DNA of 44,662 bases from a virus, in the IMG/VR virus record IMGVR_UViG_3300044700_000257, positions 1 through 44,662 of that record; one strand, 5' to 3'. A program made the translations under genes and the position numbers. The stretch's first letter is position 1, and each line of letters starts with the position of its first letter. Positions 14 through 27,431 of this stretch are shown one piece after another. The notes below the pieces were generated by a model. That model searched no databases and was not told where the DNA came from. It saw nothing but the letters and a program-made list of their open reading frames with translations.

Positions 14-1552
14 TCAATCTACTGTGTAAATTAAATTGTTTTCAGGAAAAACAAAAGTTCCATTAACAATTTTAGAATCACTATTTTTAAAAACTAAAAT
101 CTGTCCTTTACTGTTCGCAAAAATTAATAAGTCGGTATTATATTTCTTAACATTACCCGAACCAAAAATACTAACAAGTCCATTGATATTTTTTGTGTAA
201 GTAAATGGTTTGATTTGTGCGGTATTCTTCACACCATCAATATTAATTTCACAATCAATACCACCAATCATATCTTCACGACTACCTAATTGACCTACCT
301 TAGTAACATTTTTCTCACCAAACATTGGTTTTAATTTTTTAACAACTAAATCTTCACGAGCATCACCCCACTTATTAGTTTGATTTAAGATTGACATTAA
401 ATTTAAAAATGTTGAAGATTCAGTATTGAATATTCTTTCTTTGAATTTATCAATGATACTAACAAATTTGTCGGTTGCACTATTTTGTTCTGTTTTTGAT
501 TTACCTATTAAATAAATTGGGTCAACACCTTTCTTTTTTAAGACGGTATTGATATCGTTTAATAACACACAGAAACAACTATAGTTAGTGTTTAATTTAT
601 TGATAACAGACCTACCTTGGGTTTCTAAGTCATAAATACCCGACATTTCACCTTCACCATATTCATTAACACCATAGTAGTTATCCGGAAACACTTCTTT
701 AAGAATTCTATCTATTGATTGTTTGTATATGTATTTTACAGTGGGGTTTGAATTAAATACTTTTCTAATTTCCTCAGTGATTGACGGACTACATTTTTCT
801 GATTTTTGTTCCATAATTAATTGATTAATTCTTACACTCTCAGTTAACGTTTTATTCGTTTTCATTGAGTAAAGTTGGTTAACAAATTCCCAATTTACAC
901 ACTTCCAAAAATTTTTAATATACTCGTCTCTTTTGTTACGGTATTTTAAATAATAGGCGTGTTCCCATAAATCAAGGCCTAATAAAGGATAACCCCCATT
1001 CTTAATGATGTTCATTAATGGATTATCTTGATTTGGTGTTGTTACAATTTTTAATGTTTTATTACTTGATAAAACTAACCAAACCCATCCTGAACCAAAC
1101 CCATCTTTTGCAACTTCCTCAAATTTTGTTTTAAAATTTGCAAAAGTTTTAAATTGTGATATAATTTTTTTGTAAACTTCACCTGATGGTTTTTGTGTGG
1201 TAGGTGTTAACATTTTCCAAAATAATGCGTGGTTAAAAGCACCACCGGCATTGTTTCTAATTGTTTTATTGTACTTACTAATATTTTTAATAATATCTTC
1301 AAGTTCCAAGTCACCGTATTTTCCTTTTGACAATGCGTTATTTAACTTCTCAACGTAACCTTTATAATGTTTATTATAATGGTAGGACATTGTTTCCGCA
1401 TCAATAAATTGTTTTAAGGCAGTATACGAGTATGGTAATTTTTCAATTCCAATTTTTTTCATTTCAGTTAAGAACAATTCTTTGTTTTTCTTAACTTCAA
1501 TTTCATTTAGTTGTTTATTTATTCTTTCAACTTTTTCTTCGATTGCATTCAT
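14..1552 (-). CDS. Mn-type superoxide dismutase fused to a PD-(D/E)XK nuclease-like domain
   Basis: The protein has 512 residues when started at the ATG at 1552. The upstream in-frame ATG at 1573 overlaps a TATTTAT element, and 1552 gives the usual 19-nt spacing. Residues about 35-230 are a full Fe/Mn superoxide dismutase: YHYNKHY carries the first His (58), FNHALFW the second (108), and DLWEHAYY the Asp (194) and third His (198). AGGAFNH and NQDNPLM (Gln175) match the Mn type rather than the Fe type. This domain should convert superoxide to oxygen and hydrogen peroxide. Residues about 236-249 (LTESVRINQLIMEQ) form a linker. After an unrecognised middle region, residues about 393-490 look like a PD-(D/E)XK nuclease: Glu in AREDLVVKKL, Asp433 in GGIDCEI, then QIK (446-448), the QxK variant seen in Mrr-type enzymes. 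The SOD call is firm; the nuclease call is inference from the motif and the alternating hydrophobic strands. It lies 20 nt after the helicase gene on the same strand. Confidence 0.85.
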   Translation of the reverse strand: MNAIEEKVERINKQLNEIEVKKNKELFLTEMKKIGIEKLPYSYTALKQFIDAETMSYHYNKHYKGYVEKLNNALSKGKYGDLELEDIIKNISKYNKTIRNNAGGAFNHALFWKMLTPTTQKPSGEVYKKIISQFKTFANFKTKFEEVAKDGFGSGWVWLVLSSNKTLKIVTTPNQDNPLMNIIKNGGYPLLGLDLWEHAYYLKYRNKRDEYIKNFWKCVNWEFVNQLYSMKTNKTLTESVRINQLIMEQKSEKCSPSITEEIRKVFNSNPTVKYIYKQSIDRILKEVFPDNYYGVNEYGEGEMSGIYDLETQGRSVINKLNTNYSCFCVLLNDINTVLKKKGVDPIYLIGKSKTEQNSATDKFVSIIDKFKERIFNTESSTFLNLMSILNQTNKWGDAREDLVVKKLKPMFGEKNVTKVGQLGSREDMIGGIDCEINIDGVKNTAQIKPFTYTKNINGLVSIFGSGNVKKYNTDLLIFANSKGQILVFKNSDSKIVNGTFVFPENNLIYTVD

Positions 1553-1571
1553 ATCGCTTATTTTATATAAC

Positions 1572-1578
1572 ATAAATA
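1572..1578 (-). promoter_or_regulatory. TATTTAT element before the SOD fusion gene
   Basis: TATTTAT on the minus strand, 19 nt before the ATG at 1552 and inside the short gap after the helicase gene. It overlaps the alternative ATG at 1573, which is one reason to prefer 1552 as the start. It implies that the SOD fusion can be transcribed separately from the helicase. Confidence 0.45.
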
Positions 1579-1593
1579 AGCGGAAGGGTTGAA

Positions 1594-3351
1594 TTATCTC
1601 CTTTGATTTATGAGATTCATCATTTGTTCTACAATGTCACCTTTTTCAATATTATCCCCCATTACCGTCTCAAAGATATTTTTCTTGTTTGTTAACATAT
1701 CGTAAATTATCCCCTCAATAGTGTTTTCAAATATCGGGTAATAAACGGATACATTAGATTTTTGTCCGTATCTATATGCTCGGTCTTCAGCTTGTGAATG
1801 GTCTGAAGGGACGAATGATAAGTCATTCATAATACAAGCCTCACCAGCGGTGAGAGTAATTCCAACACCCGCAGCTTTCAAGTTTCCGACAAACACTTTT
1901 ATTTTATCGTTTTCTTGGAATTGGTCTACGGAGTATTGTCTTTGTGGTTTAGTACAAGAACCATCTAAGTAAACCGACTGTTTACCAAAATGTTCGTGTA
2001 TTTTTCTCAAAGTATCTGTAAAGTTAGTAAAAATAATAACTTTTTTACCTTGTTCTATAATATTTTCGGCTAGTTCTATTGTTTGTTTTATTTTCTCTTC
2101 CGCAATTATCTGTCTAACTTTCATTAACCTACTAAACTGTATTGTTAATGATTTAGACTCTTCTTTTTTATTTTCATACCAATTATAGTATTCCCCAACT
2201 TCAGTTTCGTATTCTTTAGATTTTAATCTAAGATAAACGGGGGTTATGATTTTATCAGGTAAATCTAACACATCCTCCTTCAATCTTCTCAACACCTGTC
2301 TTGACGTGCGGTCTCTTAGTTCTTCTAAATTAGACGCCCCTGACACATTCCAAATTTTTCGTTTTCCCGCATTAAATTGGTAACCTTGACAGTACCTAAT
2401 AGCATAAGCCATCCAATTTTGTGCCACGGGACTTTCGATTATATTTAATAGATTGAAATAGTTCATCGGTCTTGAGGTCATAGGCGTTCCTGTTAATAAC
2501 CAAACTCTATTGATGTCTTTCGCAAAACTATTAATTAATTTTGTTCTCTGTGCCTGGGCGTTTTGTATATAGTGAGCCTCATCAATGATAACTAAATCAA
2601 AATTACTTTGTGTAATTAATGAATTTTGTTTATCTTTGAGGTCGTAAAAGTTCTTAATTATATCGTAATTGATAATCACAAAATCATGTTCCGTTGAAAA
2701 GTTCTTACCTTCACTAATGTAAACGGGTCTGTCAGAATAATTTTCAATCTCTCTTTGCCAATTAATTTTTAAAGTTGCGGGACAGATAATCAATATCTTT
2801 TTTGCATCTGTTTCTAACGCCGCAATAATTGTTGAAGTTGTTTTACCTAACCCCATATCATCCGCTAATATGTATCGTTTAGAACCCGCTAATGATTCTA
2901 TTGCAAGTTTTTGATGTTCTAATGGGGGACGGTGAGAATACTTCGTGTAATCAACATTAATGTCTTCAGTTCTATGGGTTTTTAATAACGCACCTTTTGG
3001 TAACCACAAATCACGAATAGTTTCAGTTTCAAAAAACTTACCCCAAACATGATATGATTTATCTTTCTCAACCAATAATTTCTCTACCCACATTTCTTTT
3101 GGGATTTCAGTGAATAAATTATCGTTAGCGATTTTTTTTGCAAAGTAAGGGTCTAATTCAACCCATTTCTTAGCGACTTTTGGTTGTGTTTCAGAATAGT
3201 TAATTACGTAATCCGATTGTGACCTTGTAGGGTAAAAGTTTTTATTCTTTTCCTTTTGATTTTTTAACTTAATTATATAGTTGTTAGCCCCTGAGTAAGA
3301 CTCAAGTAACTTAATGGCTTTCTGTTCTATAGTAATGATTTTATCTTCCAA
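1594..3351 (-). CDS. SNF2-family DNA helicase/translocase
   Basis: The 585-residue protein is a superfamily 2 ATPase of the SNF2 class, which moves along double-stranded DNA and remodels forks or protein-DNA complexes. Visible motifs in order are the Q-like RPPLEHQ, Walker A DDMGLGKTT (164-172), motif Ia ICPATLKINW, Walker B IIDEAH, motif III LLTGTP, motif V region GVGITLTAG and motif VI QAEDRAYRYGQ. The RxGQ ending and the single compact C-terminal lobe resemble SMARCAL1/RapA-type enzymes. The first 140 residues are unrecognised. Translation appears to begin at TTG (3349-3351): the nearest ATG (3354-3356) is out of frame and meets a stop quickly. A minus-strand TATTTAT lies 23 nt upstream. 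It may do the job of T4 UvsW (fork reversal, recombination-dependent replication), but this is inference from family and phage type. It is the first gene of a two-gene minus-strand unit with the SOD-nuclease fusion. Confidence 0.9.
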   Translation of the reverse strand: MEDKIITIEQKAIKLLESYSGANNYIIKLKNQKEKNKNFYPTRSQSDYVINYSETQPKVAKKWVELDPYFAKKIANDNLFTEIPKEMWVEKLLVEKDKSYHVWGKFFETETIRDLWLPKGALLKTHRTEDINVDYTKYSHRPPLEHQKLAIESLAGSKRYILADDMGLGKTTSTIIAALETDAKKILIICPATLKINWQREIENYSDRPVYISEGKNFSTEHDFVIINYDIIKNFYDLKDKQNSLITQSNFDLVIIDEAHYIQNAQAQRTKLINSFAKDINRVWLLTGTPMTSRPMNYFNLLNIIESPVAQNWMAYAIRYCQGYQFNAGKRKIWNVSGASNLEELRDRTSRQVLRRLKEDVLDLPDKIITPVYLRLKSKEYETEVGEYYNWYENKKEESKSLTIQFSRLMKVRQIIAEEKIKQTIELAENIIEQGKKVIIFTNFTDTLRKIHEHFGKQSVYLDGSCTKPQRQYSVDQFQENDKIKVFVGNLKAAGVGITLTAGEACIMNDLSFVPSDHSQAEDRAYRYGQKSNVSVYYPIFENTIEGIIYDMLTNKKNIFETVMGDNIEKGDIVEQMMNLINQRR

Positions 3352-9344: not shown

Positions 9345-10301
9345 ATGAGTAATAGAAATTTAATTAAAAAAATTTTAAAAGAGGTTGCTGAAGAAAGAAA
9401 TCTAAGATTATACGCTTTAGATTGGGATGACAATATTTTAGGAATGCCAACTAAAATTTATCTTAAAGATGAAGAGGGTTATTCTATTGGAATGCCGACA
9501 GACCATTTTGCCGAATATAGACATTTAATCGGTAAGGAACCTTTTGAATATGAAGACTCGACAATTGTTGGGTTTGATGAAGACCCGTTTAGAGATTTCA
9601 CACATCCTGAAACATTTTTAAGGGATACGATTAAAGCTGTTAAAAATAATAGGTTTTCCCCAAGTTTTGAGAAATTCAAAGAGACATTAATTTACGCTAA
9701 TCCATTTTCAATTATCACGGCTAGAGGTCATAGTCCGAAAGTAATTAAAAAAGGTGTTAAATTATTTATAGACATTGCATTAACACCGGAAGAAAAACAA
9801 GAAATGATTAGTAACATCAAAGATGTTTTGAACTTTGAAGAAATCGGAGGTTACTACAAAACAGGTGATTTAGACGATTCTCAAATGATTGACGTGTATT
9901 TAGATGAAAAAGGAGAATACTATCCTGTATCGTCAAAAGAATTCGGTCAGAGGTTTAAATTGGACCCAAGTAAAGGTGCGTCTAGTCCGGAACATAATAA
10001 GAAATTAGCATTATCTGACTTTTTAGACCAAGTATATAATAAGGTAGGTAGATTAATTGATAGTGGTAAATATGGTTCTGTTTCATTAGGATTTTCAGAT
10101 GACGACATTAGTAATGTAAGAAGTATGGTTCAACACATAGAAGATGAATTATCAAGAGTTTATCCTGAAATACATTTTGTCGTGAAAGATACTTCTGAAG
10201 GTGGAATGAAAAAGATAGTTATAACTAGACTTAACAATGAGGCAGACTCTGAGTCTTTACTAGAAAATTATATGATTAATAAAATATTAAGCTATTTATA
10301 A
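9345..10301 (+). CDS. HAD-superfamily phosphatase-like protein
   Basis: The 318-residue protein has the four HAD motifs. Motif I is LDWDDN (Asp26 nucleophile and Asp28). Motif II is SIITARG (Thr125). A Lys candidate is in PEHNKKLALSDF (about 219-220), and the acidic motif IV is FSDDD (251-254). Such enzymes remove phosphate from small molecules, proteins or DNA 3' ends; the substrate cannot be read from the sequence. The first 17 residues (LIKKILKEVAEE) are a basic helix with an L-x-E site that could direct packaging into the prohead or the virion (inference). It stands alone as a unit between the terminator after sheath and the tube gene, an odd place for an enzyme. The ATG at 9341 is out of frame and is followed at once by a stop. 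Confidence 0.75.
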   Translation: MSNRNLIKKILKEVAEERNLRLYALDWDDNILGMPTKIYLKDEEGYSIGMPTDHFAEYRHLIGKEPFEYEDSTIVGFDEDPFRDFTHPETFLRDTIKAVKNNRFSPSFEKFKETLIYANPFSIITARGHSPKVIKKGVKLFIDIALTPEEKQEMISNIKDVLNFEEIGGYYKTGDLDDSQMIDVYLDEKGEYYPVSSKEFGQRFKLDPSKGASSPEHNKKLALSDFLDQVYNKVGRLIDSGKYGSVSLGFSDDDISNVRSMVQHIEDELSRVYPEIHFVVKDTSEGGMKKIVITRLNNEADSESLLENYMINKILSYL

Positions 10302-26726: not shown

Positions 26727-27431
26727 ATGAGCGTAGATAAAAAAATATTAGAAGAGATTACACGATTTAATTCGATTAATAGATATATTAACGAACAAGA
26801 GTTACCTCCACCACCGGCTGAGGACCCATTGGCGGACCCATTAGCTGCAGGAGCTCCACCTGCCGACCCATTAGCCGCAGGAGCACCACCTGTAGACCCA
26901 TTAGCGGCAGGAACACCACCAGCACCCGCACCACCAACAGGTGATGTGCCTCAACCTGTGGATATTGAAAATGACCCTGATGTTGAGAAAGTTGATGGTG
27001 ATGGTGAAAAAAGTGAGGGTAAAAAAGAATTAGACGTAACTGAATTAGTTAATAGTCAAAAGAATGTAGAACAGAAACAAGAAGAATACTTCCAACAATT
27101 ATTTTCTCATTTAGAAAATTTGGAAAATAAATTAGGGGAAATGGATAATATCGTTAGTCAATTAAATAGTTTAGAGGCTAAAGTTGAGAAATATAGAGAA
27201 AAATCACCTCAAGAAAAAATGGAACTTAGAACTTTAGATTCAGGACCATTTAATCAAAAATTATCTCAATATTTTGAAGATAAAGAGGAGGATTTCGAAA
27301 AATTAGGTAGAGATGAATATATCTTAACTAAAGATGATGTTGAAGATTTTTCACCAAAAGAAATACAAAAAACATTTAGTGATTTTAACGGAGACGGTGA
27401 TGAAGATAGTGTTTTTAAAACAAAATATTAA
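26727..27431 (+). CDS. Acidic coiled-coil protein with Pro/Ala repeat, possible virion or assembly protein
   Basis: A 234-residue protein of unknown function. It begins with a basic helix (KKILEEITRFNSINRYINEQ) with I/L-x-E sites. A Pro/Ala-rich linker follows, with three 10-residue copies of DPLAAGxPPx (residues 37-66). Next come an acidic segment, a coiled coil at about 110-155 (FSHLENLENKLGEMDNIVSQ and onward) and a C-terminal part with DFNGDGDED, which resembles a calcium-binding EF-hand or dockerin loop. The overall layout of N-terminal tag, flexible linker and coiled coil resembles scaffold or internal head proteins. A terminator follows it. Confidence 0.65.
   Translation: MSVDKKILEEITRFNSINRYINEQELPPPPAEDPLADPLAAGAPPADPLAAGAPPVDPLAAGTPPAPAPPTGDVPQPVDIENDPDVEKVDGDGEKSEGKKELDVTELVNSQKNVEQKQEEYFQQLFSHLENLENKLGEMDNIVSQLNSLEAKVEKYREKSPQEKMELRTLDSGPFNQKLSQYFEDKEEDFEKLGRDEYILTKDDVEDFSPKEIQKTFSDFNGDGDEDSVFKTKY
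26835..26924 (+). repeat. Three tandem 30-bp repeats encoding DPLAAGxPPx
   Basis: Three in-frame 30-bp units at 26835, 26865 and 26895 encode DPLAAGAPPA, DPLAAGAPPV and DPLAAGTPPA. A partial unit (DPLA) precedes them. Synonymous third-base differences (GCT, GCC, GCG) show that the copies have diverged at the DNA level while keeping the protein sequence. Confidence 0.9.

Follow-up and report, generated by a model that had tools for sequence, protein, structure and literature searches.

The window (the whole stretch of viral DNA that was analysed, 44,662 nucleotides) carries close to its first end a minus-strand gene for a protein that combines a superoxide dismutase (SOD) with a nuclease-type domain (Table 1). 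A first-pass annotation had placed this gene at 14-1552; the location stands, and the strand, which had been left out, is minus. A further in-frame ATG, at position 1573, lies upstream of this start and would lengthen the protein by 7 residues. The upstream neighbour is an SNF2-type helicase gene, and the downstream neighbour encodes a neck-type protein (PHROG 211, E=2.7e-10).

Table 1. Features of the SOD-nuclease locus in the window (a slash in a site name marks the proposed cut)
Feature	Position	Strand	Remarks
SOD-nuclease precursor gene	14..1552	minus	512 aa; coding 17-1552, stop codon 14-16
N-terminal leader, proposed head-targeting propeptide	1463..1552	minus	residues 1-30; predicted helix 3-18
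Proposed protease site 1, L-T-E30/M31	1463..1471	minus	E30 in 58/66
Mn-type superoxide dismutase domain	839..1462	minus	residues 31-238; 24.4 kDa, pI 9.5
Proposed protease site 2, L-T-E238/S239	839..847	minus	E238 in 65/66
10-residue spacer SVRINQLIME, sites 2 to 3	809..838	minus	
Proposed protease site 3, I-M-E248/Q249	809..817	minus	E248 in 64/66
PD-(D/E)XK-type nuclease domain (predicted)	17..808	minus	residues 249-512; 29.8 kDa
E400, candidate first acidic residue	353..355	minus	long core helix 380-411; invariant in 66/66
D433 of PD-(D/E)XK-type motif (GID)	254..256	minus	invariant in 66/66
Q446-x-K448 of motif	209..217	minus	invariant in 66/66; Q446 13 residues after D433
TATTTAT promoter-like element	1572..1578	minus	20-26 nt before SOD-nuclease start codon
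SNF2-type helicase gene, conserved upstream neighbour	1594..3351	minus	PHROG 62, E=2.5e-110

The first-pass annotation had read one frame joining a complete Mn-type SOD to a C-terminal domain with a D...QxK pattern, which is borne out by Pfam, PDB matches and residue conservation. In a scan of IMG/VR, the whole fusion was spanned in one frame by all 80 of the best relatives listed, at 57-96% identity (the total is at least 80, and 66 non-redundant members were used for residue counts). Since these 80 contigs are independent, the fusion is neither a chance product nor a sequencing error. When the SOD part alone served as the query, the frame continued through the nuclease in 78 of the 80 viral loci listed; a contig end cut off the remaining two. 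A read error, or two separate genes, is therefore ruled out both by the one-frame fusions (at least 80) and by the 78 of 80 SOD-query loci that continue; the comparison with related phage genomes that had been proposed earlier as a check shows a conserved fusion and not two genes joined by error. The accompanying statement that SOD genes are rare in phages fails for this phage group, where almost every member has an SOD and at least two losses have occurred. No such fusion was found in GenBank phages, and no phage SOD-nuclease protein was found in a literature search whose coverage of subscription journals was thin. An internal start at M31 that would give a separate SOD is not favoured, because this position is Ala in 10 of the 66 members, whereas E30 is kept in 58.

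The SOD domain is complete. Pfam places an Fe/Mn SOD at residues 36-226 (PF00081, Sod_Fe_N, E=7e-22, 78.1 bits against a cut-off of 27; PF02777, Sod_Fe_C, E=1e-38, 131.9 bits against 20.9), a Sphingobacterium Mn-SOD heads its PDB matches (E=2e-57), and Foldseek also matches it to MnSOD (E=1.6e-15). Alignment to MnSOD identifies the metal ligands H58, H108, D194 and H198 together with the Mn-type Q175 and G103-G104, all invariant in the 66 non-redundant relatives, which confirms the three His, one Asp and Mn-type Gln read earlier from the residues. H62, Y66, W156, W196, E197 and Y201, which cover gateway and dimer residues, are likewise invariant (66/66), a pattern consistent with selection for catalytic activity. 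Bacterial SODs related to the phage domain come mostly from Bacteroidetes (42-51% identity), which would fit acquisition from Bacteroidetes hosts. Compared with Mn-SODs of Bacteroidetes (PF00081/PF02777), to which it is about 45-51% identical, the phage SOD retains the full domain with all ligands and second-shell residues; unlike them, it is fused to a nuclease, flanked by [L/I]xE motifs and strongly basic. The median pI of the domain is 9.5 (5-95%: 9.3-9.7), in contrast to 6.2 (5-95%: 5.0-8.1) for the bacterial relatives and 5.4 for phage open reading frames, the latter taken from the proteins of a 322-kb relative (G001). Such a charge, along with the dispensability of the domain (at least two losses), might indicate a moonlighting or decayed SOD whose fold acts as a basic module for binding DNA or carrying metal, catalysis being irrelevant. 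With metal ligands, gateway Tyr/His, Mn-type Gln and dimer residues invariant in 66/66, we consider this highly improbable.

The C-terminal domain had been assigned to residues 250-512, which is about right, as the low-confidence linker covers 234-249. Modelled alone with AlphaFold2 from 32 sequences, the domain gave a confident fold (pLDDT 90, pTM 0.84), and, as regards the structure prediction suggested in the first-pass annotation, its nearest solved structures are PD-(D/E)XK nucleases: I-Ssp6803I (2ost) tops the Foldseek list against PDB (probability 1.00, E 0.003), and Sulfolobus Hjc (4tkd) is fourth (probability 0.98, E 0.013), with more Hjc entries lower down. Every match has E above 0.001 and TM-scores are low (0.23 query/0.43 target); the fold assignment therefore relies on topology together with residues, and the model points, not strongly, to the core fold of the PD-(D/E)XK superfamily. 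The D...QxK pattern is real, with E400, D433, Q446 and K448 invariant in all 66 members, and nuclease activity may be inferred from these residues. The domain shares with I-Ssp6803I and archaeal Hjc the core topology found by Foldseek and the E...D-x12-QxK residues; unlike them, it has no sequence similarity to these enzymes above threshold and possesses an extra helical N-terminal half (250-380) with conserved residues of its own. Searches of Pfam, PHROG and NCBIfam gave no match above threshold, only isolated weak ones, and nothing credible was found by sequence in PDB. A bacterial origin was rejected, as no relative of the nuclease turned up in one scan covering 84,980 genomes of bacteria and archaea. 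Known defence families were also rejected, all PADLOC matches being sub-threshold (LeoA 0.035; SduA 0.003, outside the core). As far as tested, the domain thus appears to represent a phage-restricted family with no entry in Pfam, PHROG or NCBIfam. A distant relative is a SOD-less protein of 290 aa in the 735-kb uncultured phage LR756501 (L082:3743-4612), only 24% identical, which retains the equivalents of E400, D433, Q446 and K448; no stand-alone relatives of it were found in either of two collections.

The structural relatives and the neighbourhood raise the possibility of a late role inside the producing cell with no packaging, in which the nuclease would process or degrade DNA beside the SNF2 helicase and the SOD would counter oxidative stress. 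The helicase adjacency is conserved, and a Holliday-junction resolvase is among the best solved fold relatives; however, adjacency to a helicase is weak on its own, and the protease-type motifs around the SOD, its basic charge and the neck-gene neighbour all argue against this role, which we rate as quite unlikely.

The [L/I]-x-E motifs that bracket the SOD (E30 on one side, E238 and E248 on the other) are a new observation of this analysis. T4 gp21 cleaves after L/I-X-E, and the propeptides that it removes are 7-65 residues long (PMC9026906). The motif by itself is a weak indicator: the window protein holds eight [L/I]xE, from which conservation and position alone mark out three, the remainder lying within folded parts (e.g., at catalytic E197) or being unconserved. 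At site 1, the less conserved one, [LI]xE occurs at the E30 column in 53 of 66 members and anywhere in residues 20-40 in 61. Column entropies at sites 2 and 3 are 0.11 and 0.23 bit, each with L/I/V/M two residues before the glutamate; [LI]xE is present at site 3 in 62/66, and in 65 of the 66 members the linker contains one or more strict [LI]xE. The linker is otherwise variable, most neighbouring columns having 1.2-3.6 bits, with C254 as the other fixed column. In the full-length model, pLDDT falls below 50 exactly at 11-44 and 234-249, the proposed cut regions. Among 47 bacterial SOD relatives, by comparison, [LI]xE was found at the C-flank in none and at the N-flank in four. The leader is short and helical but shows no sequence likeness to the capsid targeting sequences of T4 (ip leaders), and no precedent was found in the literature for a propeptide that sits between two enzymes, both of them retained.

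Alternatively, the protein might work uncut, in the infected cell or in the virion, as a bifunctional enzyme whose SOD oligomers gather two or four nuclease domains, the linker being a tether. Many PD-(D/E)XK nucleases act as dimers, the SOD dimer residues E197 and Y201 are kept, and a single frame is found in all relatives listed (at least 80), each of which would suit such an enzyme. A mere tether, however, sits poorly with glutamates that are near-invariant amid a variable linker, with SOD-less nucleases that keep the motif despite lacking any SOD, and with site 1, which precedes the SOD, where a tether needs no motif. An uncut enzyme is accordingly considered unlikely.

In two phage lineages, the corresponding locus, again with the SNF2 helicase upstream and the neck-type gene downstream, has no SOD. 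Both keep the site 3 motif: the protein of one type (L133) reads MKNTENKVNLLIQEINKNETDRKISLVLSE/SKAEKC, and that of the other (L163) reads ...PSINE/MKKIEIEKLKSIISE/GKSERC. The second is explained by deletion, since the first residues of the SOD are still present (MKKIGIEKL in the fusion). The SOD-less rows require four changes on the nuclease tree; they include L151 and the distant protein of the 735-kb phage, which leaves two losses within the family. L151, in which two different frames encode the SOD and nuclease parts, was rejected as a natural SOD-less gene; given its near-identity to the intact L153, we interpret it as a frameshifted copy. Relocation of the SOD was also rejected: five contigs of 91-318 kb from SOD-less phages, possibly incomplete, contain no SOD at all. 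Leader, motif and nuclease are always kept, so the principal function would lie with the nuclease, to which the SOD would be an optional addition. We see about an even chance that a prohead protease frees both enzymes in the capsid for injection and that the SOD, flanked by the cleavage sites, can be exchanged as a cassette.

Head genes are absent from the window, which is a fragment, and the evidence for a protease is drawn from its relatives. An S77 protease is encoded in 9 of 15 relative contigs, several of which are fragmentary; they include the contig of the 96%-identical protein, where the protease gene occurs alongside T4-type portal (PF07230), terminase and Gp23 genes. When gp23-type proteins were aligned on the T4 sequence FLTE/AEIGG, the cleavage position corresponded to FLINE/ATAEG in one large relative (G003), to HLINE/ATSDG in G001 and to QIVSE/ANVTG in Flavobacterium phage immuto, which is the nearest named isolate by capsid protein. 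From these alignments, the S77 protease of the group may cut the capsid protein at LINE/A. A bS21 gene was present in all six large relatives; in G003 and G001 it lies in the head-gene region, on the strand opposite the head genes, beside those for S77 protease, portal and capsid protein. Freshwater Bacteroidetes jumbo phages of up to 331 kb with ribosomal protein bS21 have been described (PMC9723584), with the same placement of bS21 near head genes; the main text of that paper does not mention superoxide dismutase. The carriers of the fusion form a large family of lake phages whose predicted hosts are Bacteroidetes.

Stand-alone SODs occur in other jumbo phages, namely the PA5oct group, which is unrelated to the fusion group, and Vibrio phage 2.275.O. 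These are also Mn/Fe-SODs with three His and one Asp, in genomes that encode an S77 protease, but they are unfused, 182-189 aa long and only 27-31% identical to the fused phage SOD. The SOD of Pseudomonas phage Callisto (L085:2956-3504; same region in PA5oct) starts MNDSIKKYISIAE/AASSVKKIPIPYSV, placing IAE/A directly before the SOD domain, as in T4 ipIII (MKTYQEFIAE/A). It is therefore a candidate for a packaged SOD in a cultivable phage; virion data on the PA5oct SOD were not found in the one paper on PA5oct that was consulted. The SOD of Vibrio phage 2.275.O (L084:2968-3537) has a C-terminal tail, KMLDESVNIRHLINFISK, that resembles the linker KTLTESVRINQLIMEQ of the window protein, a likeness that may be due to chance.

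Leader-type sequences are not confined to the SOD-nuclease. G001 encodes many small proteins with near-identical starts, such as MKKVIRLTESDLVRLVKQVINEQ and MKYLITESKL, and the motif [LI]xE[QASGE] occurs 15.2, 8.5 and 5.5 times per 1000 residues in residues 1-10, 11-20 and 21-30, compared with 2.7 beyond residue 100. Two G001 proteins, the sole matches to the linker pattern among 1294 distinct open reading frames, have N-terminal stretches like the linker of the window protein (KTLTENINSNQLITE and KNLTESVESKSRIIYE). Arrays of small proteins with shared leaders of the forms MKK(V/I)(I/V)RLTESDLxxLVKxxIxEQ and MK(Y/F)LITESKL were observed in G001 at L098-L114 (L099:11641-14179, L099:16500-20000, L100:77-1223). 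Pfam gave four matches only for 24 leader-bearing G001 proteins (GH19, PG_binding_1, DHH and phi29 SSB). These arrays have the appearance of an extensive collection of cargo proteins targeted to the head, most of which have no Pfam match. In the window itself, a plus-strand gene at 9345-10301 (also L109:1066-1884), situated between the tail sheath and tail tube genes, encodes a protein with an [LI]xE-type leader and a HAD-like YALDWDDNIL motif, for which Pfam and PHROG gave no match above threshold. A proline-rich protein encoded at 26727-27431 (+) starts with MSVDKKILEEITRFNSINRYINEQE, an [LI]xEQ-type leader.

The element TATTTAT lies within 60 nt upstream of the SOD-nuclease gene in 67 of 70 relatives, mostly at 22-30 nt and with SOD-less orthologues included; the latter also have the SNF2-type helicase upstream. 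It is enriched about tenfold, with a peak 10-30 nt before the start codons of many G001 and G003 genes, and was found within 60 nt upstream of 23/30 strict-leader genes versus 80/300 others (Fisher p about 1e-7, a value that overstates independence because some leader genes are tandem paralogues). TATTTAT is probably a (late) promoter of this phage group, unlike that of T4, TATAAATA, which was considered and rejected as the enriched element. At window positions 1554-1581, an inverted repeat, GCTTATTT...AAATAAGC, surrounds the start-proximal TATTTAT, and a similar one precedes the gene in G001.

Taken together, the near-invariant linker glutamates, the low-confidence cut regions, the S77 protease and capsid motif of relatives, the leaders elsewhere in the group, the basic SOD, the SOD-less orthologues that keep leader, motif and nuclease, the neck-type neighbour and the IAE/A of the PA5oct-group SOD argue for a head-targeted precursor from which head maturation would yield an SOD and a nuclease as separate proteins, both then delivered along with the DNA, a reading that we favour with moderate confidence. 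The leader (residues 1-30) would bring the precursor into a T4-like prohead, where a gp21/S77-type protease, recognising [L/I]-x-E, would cleave behind E30 and behind E238, E248 or both. Two products would then remain in the DNA-filled head, the basic Mn-SOD (about 208 aa) and the PD-(D/E)XK-type nuclease (about 264-274 aa). Both enzymes would be ejected with the DNA. In the new host, the nuclease would act on DNA, and the SOD would clear superoxide from around the arriving phage DNA while the host is being taken over. A plausible benefit is that the SOD shields either the nuclease or the incoming DNA from superoxide as infection begins. Sequence and models are the basis on which we infer that the protein is packaged, cleaved and ejected, that both enzymes are active, and why an SOD is present. 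The first-pass annotation had suggested a dual effector packed with the DNA; packing is indirectly favoured by the cut motifs, the gp21-type protease of relatives, the basic SOD and the late/structural neighbourhood, whereas a single chain appears doubtful, the working form probably being two enzymes freed from a precursor.

The proposed system resembles the internal head proteins of T4 (IPI-III, Alt) in its late/structural neighbourhood, short leader, L/I-X-E motif and basic cargo, the T4 internal proteins also being basic (PMC9026906), and relatives share with T4 an S77 protease and a gp23-type capsid protein. Unlike IPI-III and Alt, it has two enzyme domains per precursor, internal motifs and a different leader, and its packaging is put forward as a proposal. 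The lake phages of the group are abundant, and their nuclease appears to define a phage-restricted family with no Pfam, PHROG or NCBIfam entry. If the proposal is true, redox defence would join the weapons carried in the tailed-phage head, a ready-made antioxidant being delivered at infection, and a prohead protease would be used for splitting two enzymes made as one chain. In addition, there would be a readable head-targeting code, by which dozens of short-leader proteins could be listed from sequence as packaged effectors.
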